Below, in pieces: positions 3,407-11,022 of a stretch of 64,000 bases of DNA. A program made the position numbers and the translations under genes. A model generated the notes under the pieces. The model saw only the letters and a program-made list of their open reading frames with translations. It was not told where the DNA came from and did no database searches. The number at the start of each line of letters is the position of its first letter. The first letter of the stretch is position 1. Location: positions 62,001 through 126,000 of the forward strand of contig NZ_ASJA01000004.1 in assembly GCF_000412185.1 (NCBI RefSeq). The letters run 5' to 3'. Source of the DNA: Euryhalocaulis caribicus (lineage in GTDB: Bacteria > Pseudomonadota > Alphaproteobacteria > Caulobacterales > Maricaulaceae).

Positions 3407-4918
3407 ATGGAAACTGGAACACTGATTACGCTCGCTCTGTATTTTCTTGGAATGCTGGGCATCGGGCTGTACGCGTGGAGGAAATCGACCTCCGACGTGT
3501 CCGGCTACATGCTTGGCGGCCGTAACCTTTCCCCGGCTGTTGCCTCGCTGTCCGCCGGCGCCTCCGACATGAGCGGCTGGCTCATGATGGGCCTGCCGGG
3601 CGCGATGTTCGTCTCCGGCCTGCCGGCCGCGTGGATCGGCGTGGGGCTGTTTGTCGGCGCCTATGCGAACTATCTCATCGTCGCGCCGCGCCTTCGCGTC
3701 TACACCGAAGAGGCCAACGACGCGATCACCATTCCGGACTATTTCGGCGAACGCTTCGCCGACCGCGGCCATTTGCTGCGCGTCCTGTCGTCCGTGGTGA
3801 TCGTGATCTTCTTCACGCTCTATACCTCCTCCGGCATGGTCGCCGGCGGCAAGCTGTTCGACAGCGCCTTCGGCCTGGATTATCGCTGGGGCCTGTGGAT
3901 CACGGCCTCGGTCGTGATGGCCTATACGCTGTTCGGCGGCTTTCTGGCCGTCAGCCTGACCGACTTCGTGCAAGGTTGCATCGTCTTCGTGGCGCTGGTC
4001 GTTGTGCCCATCGTGGCGCTGACCGATGTCGGCGGCCCGTCCGGCGCGGCCCAGACGCTCAACAGCATCGACCCGACCCTGCTGAACCTGTTCTCAGGCG
4101 TGACGCTGCTGGGCCTGATATCCTCACTGGCGTGGGGACTGGGCTATTTCGGACAGCCGCACATCATCGTGCGCTTCATGGCGGTGCGTTCCGTGAAGGA
4201 CGTGCCTGCCATGCGGCGCATCGGCATGACCTGGATGGGCGTCTCCATGATCGGCACGCTGACCACCGGCATTGTCGGCCTGGTCTACGCGACCCAGAAC
4301 AACGTGCCCGTGGATGACCCCGAGACCATCCTGATCATCCTGTCGGAAGTACTGTTCCATCCGCTGGTGCTGGGCTTCCTGCTGGCCGCCATACTGGCCG
4401 CGATCATGAGTACGGTGTCGTCGCAATTGCTGGTCTCCTCCAGCTCTCTGACCGAGGATTTCTACCGCATCTTCCTGCGCAAGAACGCCAGCGAGAAAGA
4501 GCTGGTGACGGTCGGCCGCATTTCCGTTCTGGCCGTGGCGCTGGCCGCCATCGCCTTGGCCTATGACCCGGAAAGCAATGTCCTGAACCTGGTGTCCAAC
4601 GCCTGGGCCGGCTTCGGCGCGGCCTTCGGTCCGGTGGTTATCCTCAGCCTGACCTGGCGGCGGATGACGCGGAACGGCGCGCTGGCCGGCATGGTTGTCG
4701 GCGCGGTGACCGTCCTGTTCTGGATTTACGCCCCGGTTCTGGCCGATGGCGCGGCCTTGTCCAGCGTGCTGTACGAAATCGTCCCCGGTTTCATTCTCAG
4801 CTTCGCTGCGATCATCGCCGTCAGCCTGATCGACACGCCCCCCTCCCCGGACATGGTGGAAACCTATGACCGGGTGAAGGACGAGTTGAAGAGGAACGGC
4901 CCGAAATCGGTCATCTGA
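3407..4918 (+). CDS. putP: Sodium/proline symporter PutP (SSS family)
   Basis: 503 residues from ATG 3407, matching E. coli PutP (502). The N-terminus 'TLALYFLGMLGIGLYAWRK' and the motifs 'GYMLGGRNLSPAVASLSAGASDMSGWLMMGLPGA' and 'WGLGYFGQPHIIVRFMA' are PutP hallmarks; about 13 transmembrane segments are evident. It imports proline with Na+ across the inner membrane. An in-frame TTG at 3371 would add 12 residues, but ATG 3407 fits the family. It is monocistronic: a terminator precedes it and a bidirectional one follows. No putA is adjacent. Confidence 0.93.
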   Translation: METGTLITLALYFLGMLGIGLYAWRKSTSDVSGYMLGGRNLSPAVASLSAGASDMSGWLMMGLPGAMFVSGLPAAWIGVGLFVGAYANYLIVAPRLRVYTEEANDAITIPDYFGERFADRGHLLRVLSSVVIVIFFTLYTSSGMVAGGKLFDSAFGLDYRWGLWITASVVMAYTLFGGFLAVSLTDFVQGCIVFVALVVVPIVALTDVGGPSGAAQTLNSIDPTLLNLFSGVTLLGLISSLAWGLGYFGQPHIIVRFMAVRSVKDVPAMRRIGMTWMGVSMIGTLTTGIVGLVYATQNNVPVDDPETILIILSEVLFHPLVLGFLLAAILAAIMSTVSSQLLVSSSSLTEDFYRIFLRKNASEKELVTVGRISVLAVALAAIALAYDPESNVLNLVSNAWAGFGAAFGPVVILSLTWRRMTRNGALAGMVVGAVTVLFWIYAPVLADGAALSSVLYEIVPGFILSFAAIIAVSLIDTPPSPDMVETYDRVKDELKRNGPKSVI

Positions 4919-4961
4919 TCCGTCCCGGCTCCAGCCGATGACGCACATATAGCCAAAAAGG

Positions 4962-4998
4962 AAAACGCCCTCCCCGGTCTCCCGGAGAGGGCGTTTTT
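4962..4998. terminator. Bidirectional intrinsic terminator (putP / DUF6607 gene)
   Basis: AAAACGCCCTC (4962-4972) pairs with GAGGGCGTTTT (4987-4997). The stem is flanked by T-tracts when read on either strand, so it can end both putP and the convergent gene at 5021-6040. Confidence 0.85.
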
Positions 4999-5020
4999 AT
5001 GCGCGGCGGCGTCAGCTTGA

Positions 5021-6040
5021 TCAGTTCGACGCCGTCCGGATTTCGGCGGCGCTTTGCGTCTGCCGGTCGATGACCTCGCGGGCCTCGGCCAGCGCGGCCT
5101 CGGTCGTCATCTCGCCATCCTCGACCTTTCCGGCCAGTTCCAGAACCGGCATGTAGAGGCGTTCGCCTTCTGCATTGTCATCGATGGCGAGCGAACCGGT
5201 TTCGATCAGCGCGGTCCACTTGCCGCGCACGCCGGCCCAATAGTCGGCCGTCTTGGACCAGTAGACCTCGCCCGCATCCGGCGCGAACCCGTCCGTGCGG
5301 TAGTAGGAGTTGATGCCCACTTCGCGCACCAGCTCTTCCGGGCCGTTTTCGGTCAGCACCAGCTTGTGGTTGTCCTGCTCGTGCCACCAGCCCCAGGGGG
5401 CGACCGTGTGCCGGTTCACCGCGGCCAGAACGTCATAATCGTCGCGCGTGGTGGCGTCGCGGCGCGGCAGCGGGCGCCAGGACACTGGCGGCTCCCAGGT
5501 GGAAATCTCGCCCTCATGCTCCCACGGGGCGACGGCGGCGTAACGCGGACCGTCATCGACCTGGTAGACGGTCTGCGACCAGGCGCCCTGACGCTCGGCC
5601 GTGTTCAGCGTCTTCGCCTCCCAGCGGTCATGCCCCTGATAGGCCAGGATCGATTCCGGCTCATACGCCCAGTCCTGACGCCAGTGCTTCACGACGATGT
5701 CCTTGCCGCCATGATTCATCACAAGGATGTGCTGCAGGCTGATGAAGCCCGGCTCATCCTCGATCACCCGGACGATCTCGGTCGTCGGCGTGACCTTTTG
5801 CGGCTTCAGCTCATAACCATCCTGCAGCGGCACGGTTTCGGTGAAGTCGAATGTCACGTCGAAATCGCCGGCCATCTCCAGAATGGCCTGGCGGTCGCGC
5901 TCGTAATCGGCCTTCTCTGCGCCCGCATAAGGCTGGACGGAAGACGCGGCCTCGCCGGTCTGCATCTGCATGGCGGGTTGTGCGGCGCATGCCGAAACCG
6001 CCAGCGCAAGGCCGGCGGCGGACGCCCAGATCTTTTTCAT
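5021..6040 (-). CDS. DUF6607-type lipoprotein of the heme module
   Basis: 339 residues. The N-terminus 'MKKIWASAAGLALAVSACAAQ' has a signal peptide with a lipobox-like VSAC, suggesting an exported lipoprotein. The mature part is rich in Trp and acidic residues ('VKHWRQDWAYEPESILAYQG', 'APWGWWHEQDNHKLVL') and I match it, from memory, to DUF6607, a family of unknown function often seen next to TonB receptors. It diverges from a heme-type TonB receptor across 95 bases that contain two opposed Fur-like boxes, so a role in iron or heme acquisition is inferred. No enzymatic motif recognised. Confidence 0.75.
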   Translation of the reverse strand: MKKIWASAAGLALAVSACAAQPAMQMQTGEAASSVQPYAGAEKADYERDRQAILEMAGDFDVTFDFTETVPLQDGYELKPQKVTPTTEIVRVIEDEPGFISLQHILVMNHGGKDIVVKHWRQDWAYEPESILAYQGHDRWEAKTLNTAERQGAWSQTVYQVDDGPRYAAVAPWEHEGEISTWEPPVSWRPLPRRDATTRDDYDVLAAVNRHTVAPWGWWHEQDNHKLVLTENGPEELVREVGINSYYRTDGFAPDAGEVYWSKTADYWAGVRGKWTALIETGSLAIDDNAEGERLYMPVLELAGKVEDGEMTTEAALAEAREVIDRQTQSAAEIRTASN

Positions 6041-6060
6041 TAAATTCCCCTATTGCGCTC

Positions 6061-6121
6061 TTGCGACTCATTCTCAATGTCGGTACAGCCTCTTTGTATC
6101 GCAACTGAGAATTACTCGCAA
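6061..6121. promoter_or_regulatory. Two opposed Fur-like iron boxes between divergent genes
   Basis: TTGCGACTCATTCTCAA at 6061-6077 and CTGAGAATTACTCGCAA at 6105-6121 are the same motif in opposite orientation: reversing the first gives TTGAGAATGAGTCGCAA, identical at 13 of 17 positions to the second. The GAGAAT/ATTCTC core with outer TTGCGA arms resembles proteobacterial Fur boxes. One copy sits just upstream of each divergent gene, so coordinated iron repression is likely. Confidence 0.7.
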
Positions 6122-6135
6122 TAAGGAAAGCCGCC

Positions 6136-8241
6136 ATGCTGATCCGTTCATCCCTCCTCGCCGGCGCCTGTTTCGCCGCCCTTACAGCCGGGGCCCATGC
6201 CGACGACGATCTGCCGGAGGCCGATGAAGACATGGACGTCGTCACGGTTTACGGCACGTCCAATCCCCTGCCCGTTTTCGACTATCCGGGCATGGTCAGC
6301 GTGGTGACGCGCGAAGATATCGAGAAGCTGGGCGCCAGCTCGATTTCCGACCTGCTGGAAGACACGCCCGGGATGCAGTGGTTCGGCGGCCCGCGCCGCA
6401 CGGGCGAAGGCCCCGCCATCCGGGGCCTGAGCGGGGGCAATGTCCTGATCCTTCTGGACGGCGCGCGTCAGACCTTCCGTTCCGGCCATGACGGCCGCTT
6501 CTTCCTGGACCCGGCGCTGGTGAAAACCGCCGAGGTGGTTCGCGGTCCGGCATCCGCTCTCTACGGTTCGGGCGCGGTCGGCGGGGTTCTGGCGTTCGAG
6601 ACGCTGGACGCCGAAGACCTGCTGGAAGACGGCGAGGCCTATGGCTTCCGCGCGCGCACCGGCTATCGCGACGTGAACGAGGAATGGCTGGCCGGCGCTA
6701 CGGTGTTTGGCCAGACCGGCCCGGTCGATGTTCTGGCGAGCCTGGCCTATCGCGACTCTGGCGATATTTCGCTGGGCAGCGGCGACACCCTGCCCTCCGA
6801 CGACGATATCTGGACGGGTCTTCTCAAGGGCAATGTCGATGTGACCGAGGCGCTGAACCTGGAGCTGTCCTGGCAGAGCTTCAAGAATGACGCCTTCGAG
6901 CCCAATAACGGTCAGGGCCTGAATGAAGTCGACCCGACGGACGTGCAGTTCGCCAATGTGGAGAAGGAAATCACTTCCGACACGCTGCGCGGCCGGCTGG
7001 CCTACAACCCGGCAACGCCTCTGATCAACGCCAGCGCCACGCTGTACCGGAGCGAGAGCGGCGTCGACGAATACGACCCCCAGACCGGGCGCACGACCGA
7101 ACGCGACGTGGAGACCACCGGCTTCCGCGCCAGCAACGCCGCGACATTTGAATTCGGCGCCAACGAGATCCGCGTGACCACCGGCGTCGACTGGTTCGAG
7201 GACAAGCAGACCGGCCGTGACAGCGACAGCACCGACGGCGTGCGCGCCGGGGTGCCGGATGGAAAGTCCGAATTCCTGGGCCTGTTCGCACAGGCGGAAG
7301 CCGCCTTCGACCGGCCGCTGGGCATGCCGGGCGAGTTGCTGGTCGTGCCCGGGATCCGGTTCGATAATTACAAGAGCTCGTCCAGCGTCGACCCGGAAGA
7401 GAATGACGACGAAGCGGTCTCGCCCCGTATCGCGGCCAGCTATGGTCCGGTGGAATGGCTGCGCGTGTTTGGCGGATATTCCGAAGGGTTCCGCGCGCCC
7501 TCGATCGACGAGCTGTATCTGGACGGAGTGCATTTCCAGCTGCCGCATCCGATTCTCGGCGCGCCCGTTTTCATCAGCAACCAGTTCATTCCCAACCCGG
7601 ATCTGGTCCCGGAGAAGACCGAGACCGTGGAGTTCGGCGCGGGTCTTGATTTCCGCAATGTCGCCGCGCCCGGCGACCGGTTCCAGGCCAAGGTCTCGCG
7701 TTTCGAGACGGACGCCACGGATCTGATCAATCTGGCCGTGGACTTTGCTTTCCCGCCGACCTGTTTCGCGCCGCCCTTCCAGCCGTGCAACGCCGGCGTC
7801 ACCATCAGCGACAATGTCGATGCGGCGGAGCTGTGGGGCTGGGAAGCCGAGGCCCGCTATGACACGGACCGCATCTCGCTCAGCGCCGCCTTCTCCACCG
7901 TGGATGGCGAGAATTCGGCCACCGGCGACAAGCTGGGCGTGCTGACGCCGGCCACCCTGACCCTGGACGGATCATATCTGTTCGAGGCGCTGGCCCTGCG
8001 GCTGGGCGCGCGGGTTCAGGCCGCAGACGAGTTCGACAAGGTCAATGACCCGTCCGAAATTCGCCCCGGCTATGTCGTGGGCGACCTCTACGCCAGCTGG
8101 GCGCCGGAGGCGCTGGGCGGCGTCCGCATCGACGCTGGCGTCGATAACGTGCTGGACCACGATTACGACCGCGTCTTTGCCGGAGTCAGCGAGCCGGGCC
8201 GCAATGCCCGCATCGCCTTCACCTACACGAAAGGCTTCTAG
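6136..8241 (+). CDS. TonB-dependent heme/hemoglobin-type outer-membrane receptor
   Basis: 701 residues. A signal peptide (cut near 'GAHADDD') precedes a TonB box 'MDVVTVYG', a plug domain (about residues 45-155, with 'GPAIRGLSGGNVLILLDGARQ' and 'VVRGPASALYGSGAVGGVLAFET') and a 22-strand-type barrel ending in aromatic 'FTYTKGF'. The FRAP motif (452-455) and an NPDL motif (487-490) flank His466 and His471, the layout of heme receptors such as HemR/HasR. It would import heme or heme-protein-bound iron with TonB energy. ATG 6136 has a clear AAGGAAAG site. It is downstream of a Fur-like box and followed at 8 bases by a small gene. Confidence 0.92.
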   Translation: MLIRSSLLAGACFAALTAGAHADDDLPEADEDMDVVTVYGTSNPLPVFDYPGMVSVVTREDIEKLGASSISDLLEDTPGMQWFGGPRRTGEGPAIRGLSGGNVLILLDGARQTFRSGHDGRFFLDPALVKTAEVVRGPASALYGSGAVGGVLAFETLDAEDLLEDGEAYGFRARTGYRDVNEEWLAGATVFGQTGPVDVLASLAYRDSGDISLGSGDTLPSDDDIWTGLLKGNVDVTEALNLELSWQSFKNDAFEPNNGQGLNEVDPTDVQFANVEKEITSDTLRGRLAYNPATPLINASATLYRSESGVDEYDPQTGRTTERDVETTGFRASNAATFEFGANEIRVTTGVDWFEDKQTGRDSDSTDGVRAGVPDGKSEFLGLFAQAEAAFDRPLGMPGELLVVPGIRFDNYKSSSSVDPEENDDEAVSPRIAASYGPVEWLRVFGGYSEGFRAPSIDELYLDGVHFQLPHPILGAPVFISNQFIPNPDLVPEKTETVEFGAGLDFRNVAAPGDRFQAKVSRFETDATDLINLAVDFAFPPTCFAPPFQPCNAGVTISDNVDAAELWGWEAEARYDTDRISLSAAFSTVDGENSATGDKLGVLTPATLTLDGSYLFEALALRLGARVQAADEFDKVNDPSEIRPGYVVGDLYASWAPEALGGVRIDAGVDNVLDHDYDRVFAGVSEPGRNARIAFTYTKGF

Positions 8242-8249
8242 GAGGGCCC

Positions 8250-8468
8250 ATGTGCGCGCCGATCGACGAGACCACAATCGCCCAATGGCTGAGCGGACAA
8301 TGTCTGGCGCTGGATTTATGGCTGGAGGCGGTGGCCGCCGATCCAATGGGCGATCCCGACCTCGCCCACCGGATCGAAACCCACCGCAACTGGCTGGCCG
8401 ATGAGCTTCTGGCGATTTGTGAAGAGCGGGAGAACGTGCGCAACACGCCACAGCGCGCCGCGGGCTGA
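8250..8468 (+). CDS. Small acidic protein encoded after the heme receptor
   Basis: 72 residues (MCAPIDETTIAQWLSGQC...). GGAGG (8241-8245), overlapping the receptor stop, forms a good ribosome site, so it is likely translated from the receptor mRNA. The sequence is mostly helical and acidic, with two Cys near the N-terminus and one near residue 57, and no signal peptide. I recognise no family. Its position suggests a role in cytoplasmic heme or iron handling, but that is inference only. Confidence 0.65.
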   Translation: MCAPIDETTIAQWLSGQCLALDLWLEAVAADPMGDPDLAHRIETHRNWLADELLAICEERENVRNTPQRAAG

Positions 8469-8478
8469 CCGGCCTGGA

Positions 8479-9291
8479 TCAGGCGGGGACGCGGTCCAGG
8501 GCCTGATAAAGGCCGGGCGCGCCGGCCTCATCCAGACGGCCGAATGTCTGCGGCGTGCGCTCGCCCTCGCCCAGCATCAGCCAGCCGCCGGGCTGCAGCC
8601 GGGCGGCGACGCGGGAAAGGGTCTTCGCGGCGATGTCGGCGGGCATGCGCGCGACAACGCCGCGCAGCACGATGCAGTCAAACTCGCCCAGCGGCTCGAG
8701 TTCCGCCATCAGGTTGAGCGTGCGGAAATCGACGCTCCGGCGCAGATGCGTCCGGGCGCGCCACATCTCGCCATCCTGCTCGAAATGCTGAACCAGCATG
8801 CGGACCGGCAGGCCAGTCTGGACCTCCATCCGGGAAAAGCGGCCCGATTGCGCGCGGTCGATCGCGGACTCTGAATAATCCGTGGCGATGATCTCACAGC
8901 GCCCGGGGGCGGCGAAAACGCCATCGGCGGCGGCCAGCATGGCCAGCGAATAGGCCTCCTGCCCCGTGGCGCAGCCGGCGCTCCATATCCGCACGGGGCG
9001 ATTCTCGCTGCGGCGGACGAGGTCCGGCAGGATCATCTCGCGGAATGTCTCGAAACCCTGTCCGAAGAAGCGGGTCTTACCCGGGGCCAGCGCCTCGACC
9101 ACTTCATAGGCCAGCCGTTCTTCCGGCCGGGCCAGCGCGGCGCGGCTGAGCGCCTCCGCGTTATCGTAGCCTTCACGGCGGGCCAGCGGCGACAGGCGCG
9201 CCTCGATCTGTTTTCTGTCCAGTCCGGTCAGCGACAGGCCCGCGCGCCGCAGCGCCATGTCCTCAAGCGCGTTGATCCAGCTCTGGCTCAC
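8479..9291 (-). CDS. cheR: CheR-type chemotaxis methyltransferase, divergent
   Basis: 270 residues: an N-terminal helical domain (1-75) and a SAM-binding domain with 'RIWSAGCATGQEAYSLAMLA' and 'IIATDYSESAIDRA'. CheR methylates glutamates of chemoreceptors. Two normally strong motifs are altered: the usual RNVLIYF region reads 'RGVVARM' and the FFR motif reads 'RFFGQ'. It starts at GTG 9291, six bases after the stop of the CheY-like gene, in a cluster with chpT as in Caulobacter. It may therefore methylate something other than standard MCPs, or be a weak enzyme. Confidence 0.85.
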   Translation of the reverse strand: MSQSWINALEDMALRRAGLSLTGLDRKQIEARLSPLARREGYDNAEALSRAALARPEERLAYEVVEALAPGKTRFFGQGFETFREMILPDLVRRSENRPVRIWSAGCATGQEAYSLAMLAAADGVFAAPGRCEIIATDYSESAIDRAQSGRFSRMEVQTGLPVRMLVQHFEQDGEMWRARTHLRRSVDFRTLNLMAELEPLGEFDCIVLRGVVARMPADIAAKTLSRVAARLQPGGWLMLGEGERTPQTFGRLDEAGAPGLYQALDRVPA

Positions 9292-9297
9292 AATGAT

Positions 9298-9672
9298 CTA
9301 CGCCGCCTCCACCAGACCGACCTCGGCCAGCTTGGAGGCGATGATATCCGAGTCGAAAGGCTTCATGATGTATTCGTCCGCGCCGTGACGCAGCGCCTCG
9401 GTGATGTGCGCCATGTCGTTCTCCGTCGTGCAGAAAACCACCTTGGGCGCCTCGCCCGAGGGTTCCTTGCGCAGCGTCTTGAGGAAATCCAGCCCGTTCA
9501 TGACCGGCATGTTCCAGTCCAGCAGGATCAGATCCGGCATGTCCTGACGGCAGGCCTTCAGGGCCTCGGACCCGTCGGCGGCCTCGCGGCATTCGAAATC
9601 AAGATCTTCCAGGATCCGGCGGGCGACCTTCCGGATCACCCGCGAGTCGTCCACCAAGAGACAAGTCATCAT
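9298..9672 (-). CDS. CheY-like single-domain response regulator
   Basis: 124 residues from ATG 9672 (GTG 9675 and ATG 9669 are alternatives; GGAGAGG lies just upstream). It is a bare receiver: acidic pair D8/D9, phosphoacceptor D52 in 'LLDWNMPVMNG', T82/T83 and K104 in 'IMKPF'. With no output domain it must act by protein contact, for example on a flagellar switch or a phosphorelay. It lies between cheR and chpT; the same trio occurs in Caulobacter, where this regulator is annotated as CheY-like. Partner unknown from sequence. Confidence 0.9.
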   Translation of the reverse strand: MMTCLLVDDSRVIRKVARRILEDLDFECREAADGSEALKACRQDMPDLILLDWNMPVMNGLDFLKTLRKEPSGEAPKVVFCTTENDMAHITEALRHGADEYIMKPFDSDIIASKLAEVGLVEAA

Positions 9673-9737
9673 CACGCCTCTCCAGTAATGGCGCGAGAGT
9701 CCGCCTGCGCGGTTAACAAGACCTGAATCAGCCGCCC

Positions 9738-10382
9738 TCAGGCGCCGGGGACCAGCGCGGTCAGCTCAACCCGGTCTTCGCTGGTCTGCGCGTCCACGCG
9801 CCCGCCAACTTCCTGAATTATAAGATAAATATAATAGGGCTGGATGCTGCGCCCATCGAACCCGCCCTCCGGCGCCTGGCCCGTCAGGGCGTCGGCCGCG
9901 GCCGGCAGAAGCTTGGCGCGCGGCCCCGCCGCAGTCACGCGAAGGCGTGTTTCGCCCGCCGATTCGCTGGCCTCGATTCGCACTTCGCCGCCCCGCGGGG
10001 CGGATTCCATGGCGATCAGGATCAGGTTCAGAAGCACACGCGCGGCGCGCTTTTCCAGGCCCCCGCCCTCCACCTTCCAGACGACGCCGGCCTTGGACCC
10101 GGCATACATGTCGCCGGTCAGGCGCTGCAGGGAGGCCAGCTCTATGACGCCGGGCGCGGAACCGCCGGCCCCGAAGGCAAGGCGGCAGAATTCCAGCCGG
10201 GCGCGGGATTTCTCCGCCGACTCGCGGATCAGGGCGATGGCGTCGTCCCGCATGTCCGCGGCGTCCGGGTCGTCAAAGACCGAAACGGCGGAAATGGTCG
10301 CCCCGACCGGGCCGATCAGGTCATGGCAGAGACGGGCGCTGAGCAGCGCGGCGAGGTCGGCGGAAGAGACAGGTTCGGACAT
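9738..10382 (-). CDS. chpT: Histidine phosphotransferase ChpT
   Basis: 214 residues. The N-terminal dimerisation helix carries the phospho-accepting His20 in 'SARLCHDLIGPVGA', followed by a degenerate HATPase-like fold without nucleotide-binding N/G boxes. ChpT passes phosphate from the hybrid kinase CckA to CtrA and CpdR. The motif and length match the Caulobacter family (about 225 residues). It lies about 7 kb from ctrA, so this window holds two of the three members of the relay. It is preceded by a small membrane-protein gene in the same direction. Confidence 0.93.
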   Translation of the reverse strand: MSEPVSSADLAALLSARLCHDLIGPVGATISAVSVFDDPDAADMRDDAIALIRESAEKSRARLEFCRLAFGAGGSAPGVIELASLQRLTGDMYAGSKAGVVWKVEGGGLEKRAARVLLNLILIAMESAPRGGEVRIEASESAGETRLRVTAAGPRAKLLPAAADALTGQAPEGGFDGRSIQPYYIYLIIQEVGGRVDAQTSEDRVELTALVPGA

Positions 10383-10412
10383 GAGTTCGATCTTTAGGCG
10401 ATTCGGCGCGGA

Positions 10413-10667
10413 TCAGGACCATTCATCGCCGTCGAAAACGTCATCCCCGCTCCGGACATCATCGTCATGTCCGCTGCGCGAGGAATAGAAGGCCAGCCAC
10501 ATCAGACCGCCCCCCAGCGCCAGCGAAAATACAACGCCAAGCGTCAGCGCGGTCCATCCGTGAAAGCCGATGCTGACCGGACCGGCGGACAGCCAGGTTC
10601 CGGCGGCAAAGATAATGGCGGCCGCAAGAAGGGCCGCCATTATCGCGATCAGGGCGTAGAGTTTCAT
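10413..10667 (-). CDS. Small two-helix membrane protein
   Basis: 84 residues with two clear hydrophobic segments (about residues 4-27 and 39-62) and an acidic C-terminal tail (GHDDDVRSGDDVFDGDEWS). It sits between ydbL and chpT on the same strand, 13 and 30 bases away, suggesting co-transcription. I recognise no family. The acidic tail should be cytoplasmic if the short inter-helix loop is periplasmic. Confidence 0.7.
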   Translation of the reverse strand: MKLYALIAIMAALLAAAIIFAAGTWLSAGPVSIGFHGWTALTLGVVFSLALGGGLMWLAFYSSRSGHDDDVRSGDDVFDGDEWS

Positions 10668-10680
10668 AGCGGCAGACGGG

Positions 10681-11022
10681 CTATTTCTTCACCCACTGAC
10701 CGCTGGCGTTCATGTAGTACTCGCCGGAATCGACTTTCTCGGCGATCAACTTTTCAGCCGTGACGCGGGCCACCGCATCCACCGAAACACCCTGCTTTTC
10801 AGCAAGCCTGGTATAGGCGGCGCGGCGCTGGATATTGATTTCGTCCACGGCCTGTTTGATGTCGGAATCGACCTGGCTGGGCACGACGCCGAGGAAGCCA
10901 TCCGCCCGTTCGCCCACGACGCCTTCGGCCTTGGCCTGTTCGACGATCTGCGGGGCGGTCTGGGCGACAGCCGGGGCCGCGACCAGGGCCGCGGCGAGAA
11001 GGATGGTAAGAGCACGGGGCAT
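10681..11022 (-). CDS. ydbL: YdbL family (DUF1318) periplasmic protein
   Basis: 113 residues with a Sec signal peptide ('LTILLAAALVAAPAVAQ') and the DUF1318 pattern: 'AKAEGVVGERADGFLGVV', 'VDEINIQRRAAYTRLAEKQGVSVDAVARVTAEKLI', 'GEYYMNASGQWVKK'. YdbL is encoded with YdbH and YnbE in E. coli and modulates that intermembrane lipid-transport bridge. Here the same three genes are adjacent in the same order. Confidence 0.9.
   Translation of the reverse strand: MPRALTILLAAALVAAPAVAQTAPQIVEQAKAEGVVGERADGFLGVVPSQVDSDIKQAVDEINIQRRAAYTRLAEKQGVSVDAVARVTAEKLIAEKVDSGEYYMNASGQWVKK

Follow-up and report, generated by a model that had tools for sequence, protein, structure and literature searches.

A probable Fur-controlled haem-acquisition cassette with a RhuH-type DUF6607 protein in Euryhalocaulis caribicus

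Background

In Porphyromonas gingivalis, the lipid-anchored haem-binding protein HmuY is paired with the TonB-dependent haem receptor HmuR under iron control. Here we examined a divergent gene cassette of the alphaproteobacterium Euryhalocaulis caribicus (Caulobacterales, Maricaulaceae) with genes for a DUF6607 protein, a TonB-dependent haem receptor and a 72-residue protein. It lies in a 64,000-nucleotide stretch of contig NZ_ASJA01000004.1 (positions 62,001 to 126,000; assembly GCF_000412185.1), referred to here as the window. The cassette resembles HmuY-HmuR in joining a probable haem-binding protein, lipid-anchored by prediction, to an iron-controlled TonB haem receptor, but HmuY belongs to a protein family other than DUF6607.

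A closer parallel has been described in the duck pathogen Riemerella anatipestifer, whose RhuH binds haem with a dissociation constant (Kd) of 3.4e-11 M and, as shown with the recombinant protein, removes haem from haemoglobin, from which three flavobacterial homologues also take it (PMC11967795). His96 of RhuH is the essential axial haem ligand, the change of which costs about six orders of magnitude in affinity; R143, Y144, R170, R183 and Q198 were predicted by the same authors as propionate contacts (PMC11967795). RhuH was found in the culture medium and in vesicles and is described by its authors as lacking a lipid anchor. Its gene is divergent from rhuR-rhuA, the two being separated by a 122-bp promoter that contains a Fur box, and is derepressed in a fur mutant (PMC11967795).

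The window cassette shares with RhuH-RhuR-RhuA a homologous haemophore that keeps the axial histidine and whose gene diverges from that of a TonB haem receptor over a short promoter region with a Fur box (95 bases in the window). On the other hand, its host is an alphaproteobacterium and not a member of the Flavobacteriales, there are two Fur-like boxes, one per gene, the DUF6607 protein has a probable lipid anchor and is without the Arg183 contact, and a 72-residue protein is encoded behind the receptor where R. anatipestifer has RhuA.

The DUF6607 protein and its relation to RhuH

The DUF6607 protein, single-copy in its own genome, matched the Pfam family PF20311 (DUF6607) with an E value of 1.3e-63 and 215.5 bits, the curated cut-off being 27, in agreement with the identity given to it in a first-pass annotation made from the window sequence. 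The name DUF6607 was not used in the literature searched, and thus the link to RhuH was made through structure. A sequence search against solved structures gave one strong match, PDB 8xjc (E 2.4e-56), named 'haemophore', which is RhuH, with 39% identity over 258 aligned columns. The AlphaFold2 model of the window protein (predicted local distance difference test, pLDDT, of 88) was superposed on 8xjc with a Z score of 33.9 and a root-mean-square deviation of 2.0 over 270 aligned residues, and Foldseek matched the two with an E value of 5.9e-28. Judged from sequence and model together, DUF6607 is a member of the RhuH haemophore family. The protein had been called uncharacterised in the first-pass annotation, but in RhuH it has a characterised relative.

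The folds that came next after RhuH were those of phycobiliprotein lyase, spirocyclases and nitrobindin, with Z scores near 10, and these may share with the modelled protein just a barrel arrangement. The nitrobindin and calycin-like barrels resemble it at Z 9-10 over about 148 residues, and nitrobindins bind haem, but the identity is 5-9%, DUF6607 carries additional hairpins as well as a helical C-terminal portion, and the resemblance is one of fold. A weak phmmer match to HmoB/IsdG-type monooxygenases (E 0.3-0.6) was dismissed as chance. The HmuY profile gave no match in the Pfam search at E values up to 1, which returned just DUF6607 and a weak LPAM_1.

Aligning the proteins of 80 surveyed loci and the window protein with RhuH (81 proteins), we found the counterpart of RhuH His96, His119 in the window protein, to be invariant (81/81). 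The counterparts of R143, Y144 and R170 were each present in 81/81 and that of Q198 in 79/81, and the window protein itself carries four of the five predicted propionate contacts. Given this conservation, the window protein likely binds haem, with a slightly different propionate set.

At the N terminus, a lipobox (VSA-C, residues 15-18, with Cys18) was identified by motif, followed by a disordered tether and then a beta-barrel domain, the C-terminal part of which is helical. The LPAM_1 profile reached 11.7 bits, under its 20-bit cut-off, and a lipobox was found by a strict motif in 47 of the 81 family members. The protein, labelled a lipoprotein in the first-pass annotation, probably carries a lipid anchor on this evidence. 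In genome G570 (contig 1, 306481-307319), DUF6607 was detected as two adjacent matches in different frames, probably a broken gene or a sequencing error.

The haem receptor and its pairing with DUF6607

The receptor matched TIGR01785 with 442.6 bits against a cut-off of 316.85. It has the plug and barrel of the ShuA/HmuR receptors together with their FRAP and NPDL boxes, and in the alignment with ShuA (3fhh, E 1e-89), His118 in the plug and His466 between the two boxes align with the haem-ligand histidines of ShuA. By its sequence it is a ShuA-type two-histidine haem receptor; the first-pass annotation had recognized a haem-type TonB receptor. It differs from ShuA/HmuR systems in its surroundings, as no hmuSTUV genes adjoin it and neither HemS nor a dedicated haem ABC (ATP-binding cassette) system was found in the genome.

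A second haem-like receptor, on contig 25 of the same genome (L104:3659-6888), scored 270 bits with TIGR01785, under the cut-off, and is followed by a PepSY_TM gene, an arrangement like that of Caulobacter hiuAB (PMC13001220).

We surveyed the neighbourhoods of 80 DUF6607 loci, including 47 complete divergent loci that all come from other genomes; the loci are related and their counts are not independent. A TonB receptor similar to that of the window adjoins DUF6607 in 71 of the 80, so the association elsewhere, on which the first interpretation had been staked, was found. Two main arrangements were recognized. In class A, to which the window locus belongs, the genes are divergent, DUF6607 mostly has a lipobox, and both ShuA-type receptor histidines are present in 46 of the 47 complete loci. 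In class B, known here from Brevundimonas, Caulobacter and sphingomonads, DUF6607 has an ordinary signal peptide and lies co-directionally behind a receptor with neither of the haem histidines; the four class B receptors that were scanned all exceeded haem/haemoglobin receptor cut-offs. The pairing of DUF6607 with a receptor is kept across both arrangements and both receptor types. In the tree, in which the position of RhuH is uninformative owing to a long branch, the nearest relative of the window copy comes from Euryhalocaulis (Maricaulaceae, locus L002). This locus (3651-5786) is the sole one of the 47 with a no-histidine receptor, the receptor in this slot having been exchanged.

Fur-like boxes and organization of the cassette

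The three open reading frames (ORFs) and the divergent gap with its two inverted Fur-like boxes, as first read from the sequence, are present (Table 1). The pattern common to both boxes, TGAGAATNANTCGCAA, had 17 matches at 15 places in the 3.3-Mb genome when up to two mismatches were allowed, against one for the reversed control, and is thus not a chance occurrence. Boxes were detected upstream of nuoA, bacterioferritin, FbpA-like, PiuC-like hydroxylase, DUF2061 and further receptor genes, and direct activation of nuoA-N by Fur is established in Caulobacter (PMC6120978). Among the divergent loci of other genomes, 42 of the 47 complete gaps have a Fur-like box with no more than two mismatches, where 0.05 would be expected from mononucleotide shuffles. 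Since the box precedes genes of the Fur-target type in the own genome and is kept in most of these gaps, control of the cassette by iron through Fur, which had been proposed from the boxes, is well supported at the sequence level. A sigma-70 scan of the window promoter gave no match.

Table 1. Positions of the cassette features within the window
Feature	Position	Strand	Remarks
DUF6607 protein gene	5021-6040	-	ORF of 339 aa
His119 codon (KHWRQDW motif)	5684-5686	-	From the RhuH alignment; counterpart of RhuH His96, the axial haem-iron ligand
Divergent gap DUF6607/receptor	6041-6135		95 bases, two Fur-like boxes
Fur-like box 1	6061-6076	-	Exact match TGAGAATGAGTCGCAA; 20 bases before the start codon of DUF6607
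Fur-like box 2	6106-6121	+	Exact match TGAGAATTACTCGCAA; 14 bases before the start codon of the receptor gene; orientation opposite to that of box 1
ShuA/HmuR-type TonB-dependent haem receptor gene	6136-8241	+	ORF of 701 aa
72-residue small protein gene	8250-8468	+	ORF

On contig 2 of the genome, a Fur-like box that is a perfect palindrome, TTGAGAATAATTCTCAA, was identified upstream of a gene for a small DUF2061 membrane protein (L086:1281-1517).

Proposed function and the haem steps beyond the outer membrane

It is highly probable that the window holds a Fur-controlled, RhuH-type, lipid-anchored haem-acquisition cassette. In the course of events that we infer, iron starvation would take Fur off both boxes, and derepression would yield the DUF6607 lipoprotein on one side and, on the other, the receptor with the small protein. 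A lipid and a flexible linker would tether the lipoprotein to the outer membrane; His119 would serve as its axial haem ligand, and Arg166, Tyr167, Arg194 and Gln222 would hold the haem propionates. The lipoprotein would then hand haem directly to the receptor, which would import it with TonB energy via His118 and His466. The extracytoplasmic haem-handling role suggested for DUF6607 in the first-pass annotation has gained from the homology to RhuH, the conserved ligands and the pairing with receptors. Family, fold, ligand and gene arrangement were already known from RhuH; the features of this locus itself are the probable lipid anchor, the duplicated box and a downstream pathway that is unusually incomplete.

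Several observations weigh against the haem-acquisition cassette. Identity to RhuH is just 39%, and the counterpart of its R183 was found in none of the 81 proteins, which have Ala, Gly or Ser instead (Ala in the window protein). RhuH was described without a lipid anchor, so that the location of the probably anchored window protein may differ; the haem-binding measurements come from the flavobacterial side, and they would extend to alphaproteobacterial DUF6607 by homology. The receptors with neither haem histidine in Brevundimonas and the sphingomonads would allow a different iron ligand there. In the own genome, we found no haem oxygenase of the PF01126 or HugZ type (PF10615), the IsdG/ABM type and other oxygenases not being searched, no match to HemS (PF05171), and no dedicated haem ABC importer, Dpp-type permeases not being searched. 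Thus, a complete haem-iron pathway cannot be drawn. The lack of an hmu-type ABC transporter, first remarked on for the neighbourhood of the cassette, extends in this way to the whole genome.

The sole FecCD permease of the genome was considered as HmuU and set aside, as its best NCBIfam scores were to BtuC and all under the cut-offs; the adjoining ATPase gene was best matched to corrinoid ATPases, also under the cut-offs. A cobalamin riboswitch (L107:4221-4446, contig 12) precedes a TonB receptor gene, and the sole Peripla_BP_2 gene lies downstream of both. From these scores and the riboswitch, it is more likely that the only such ABC importer of the genome serves vitamin B12 rather than haem.

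Of the 299 genomes of the order, 128 have DUF6607 and 2 have HemS, with no overlap; mutual exclusion of the two is suggestive, though with two HemS genomes not significant. One of these (G404) belongs to the same family as the window host, and there a receptor orthologous to that of the window (52%) and its small protein face hmuS-hmuT-hmuU and not DUF6607; a gene for a ChaN haem-binding lipoprotein lies behind the small gene. The presence of hmuSTU in the DUF6607 slot speaks for haem as the substrate of the receptor and at the same time raises a second explanation, which overlaps the haem-acquisition cassette and differs just in location and direction of transfer. DUF6607 might face the periplasm, take haem after its import by the receptor and stand in for HmuT, the haem or its iron leaving by a transporter not yet known. 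Besides the slot exchange, HmuTUV were not found in the own genome, three sphingomonad loci have an FbpA-like binding protein gene after DUF6607 and an ABC ATPase gene further on, and RhuH was seen in vesicles, the lumen of which is periplasm. However, RhuH was also detected outside cells, the stripping of haem from haemoglobin by the recombinant protein is an outside job (PMC11967795), and the slot exchange comes from one closely examined locus. We regard a periplasmic acceptor as possible but rather unlikely. In our analysis the outer face of the outer membrane is favoured because of the biochemistry of RhuH, the inner location having on its side the slot exchange and the HmuT that was not found.

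For the later fate of haem, we infer one further route as a speculation with a low chance of being right, namely an order-wide haem-iron route without HmuTUV, HemS or known haem oxygenases, with DUF6607 as the key haem acceptor. The iron might be stripped from haem outside the cytoplasm and enter by way of an FbpABC-type ferric importer under Fur control; alternatively, haem might enter through an unknown carrier and be opened by an unknown enzyme. The FbpA-like neighbour of the sphingomonad loci (L071, L076 and L078, about 7100-10900), in which DUF6607 is followed by the FbpA-like ferric-binding protein gene, one more gene and the ABC ATPase gene, suggests a link of the haemophore family to ferric-ion import.

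A concrete function is hereby proposed for Pfam DUF6607, and the RhuH type of haemophore, described from the Flavobacteriales, would also occur in much of an alphaproteobacterial order (128/299 genomes). Anchored or free DUF6607 proteins and two-histidine or no-histidine receptors form a natural variant set. With HemS in 2/299 genomes, and with no haem ABC importer and neither of the two oxygenase families found here, the question of how haem passes beyond the outer membrane is sharpened and becomes testable with a small gene set.

The 72-residue protein

The small ORF starts 8 bases past the receptor stop codon, with an AGGAGG ribosome-binding site, and a profile search revealed homologues behind receptors in 11 other loci. 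W13, L14, Q17, W24, E43, H45, W48 and L49 are invariant in the aligned set, and this conservation marks the gene as genuine. Searches of Pfam and NCBIfam gave no match for the protein, and its model, a helical hairpin with pLDDT 87, gave no significant fold match.

The first-pass annotation had suggested that it could be a cytoplasmic haem-handling partner. A role as the system's own cytoplasmic haem protein, either carrier or degrading enzyme, would fit the position of the gene directly behind the receptor in the window, in genome G404, which bears hmuS, and in the 11 other loci, as well as a weaker match about 2.5 kb from the HemS gene in the second hmuS-bearing genome (G631) and the invariant His45. 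However, the family has members in 97 of the 299 genomes of the order, just 17 of its 50 strongest matches (E < 1e-12) lie within 5 kb of DUF6607, several members adjoin unrelated genes such as a saccharopine-dehydrogenase-like gene, and a helical hairpin of 72 residues is unlikely as an oxygenase. This wide and mostly unlinked distribution makes such a role very doubtful, and the haem-specific assignment was dropped. On sequence evidence the protein is better placed in a family of small proteins, some members of which are also encoded on the mRNAs of haem receptors.

In the Kordiimonas-type loci L050, L056 and L063, the place of the small protein behind the receptor is taken by a protein that, judged by eye, resembles cytochrome b561, a dihaem membrane protein.

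Alternative ligands and neighbouring genes in related loci

That DUF6607 binds another ferric chelate or a tetrapyrrole other than haem, and is paired with whatever receptor adjoins, could account for the class B receptors with neither haem histidine and for the lyase, spirocyclase and nitrobindin folds, a barrel type that serves several ligands. It is highly improbable, since classes A and B alike keep the axial histidine and three of the propionate contacts without exception, the class B receptors tested still exceed haem/haemoglobin receptor cut-offs, the window receptor has the two haem histidines, and RhuH and its three flavobacterial homologues do take haem from haemoglobin (PMC11967795).

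A gene for a periplasmic-type DUF4198 protein, absent beside the DUF6607 gene of the window, follows DUF6607 in 12 of the surveyed loci, mostly of Henriciella (L004, L006, L007, L010, L012, L013, L014, L016, L021, L023, L040 and L060).

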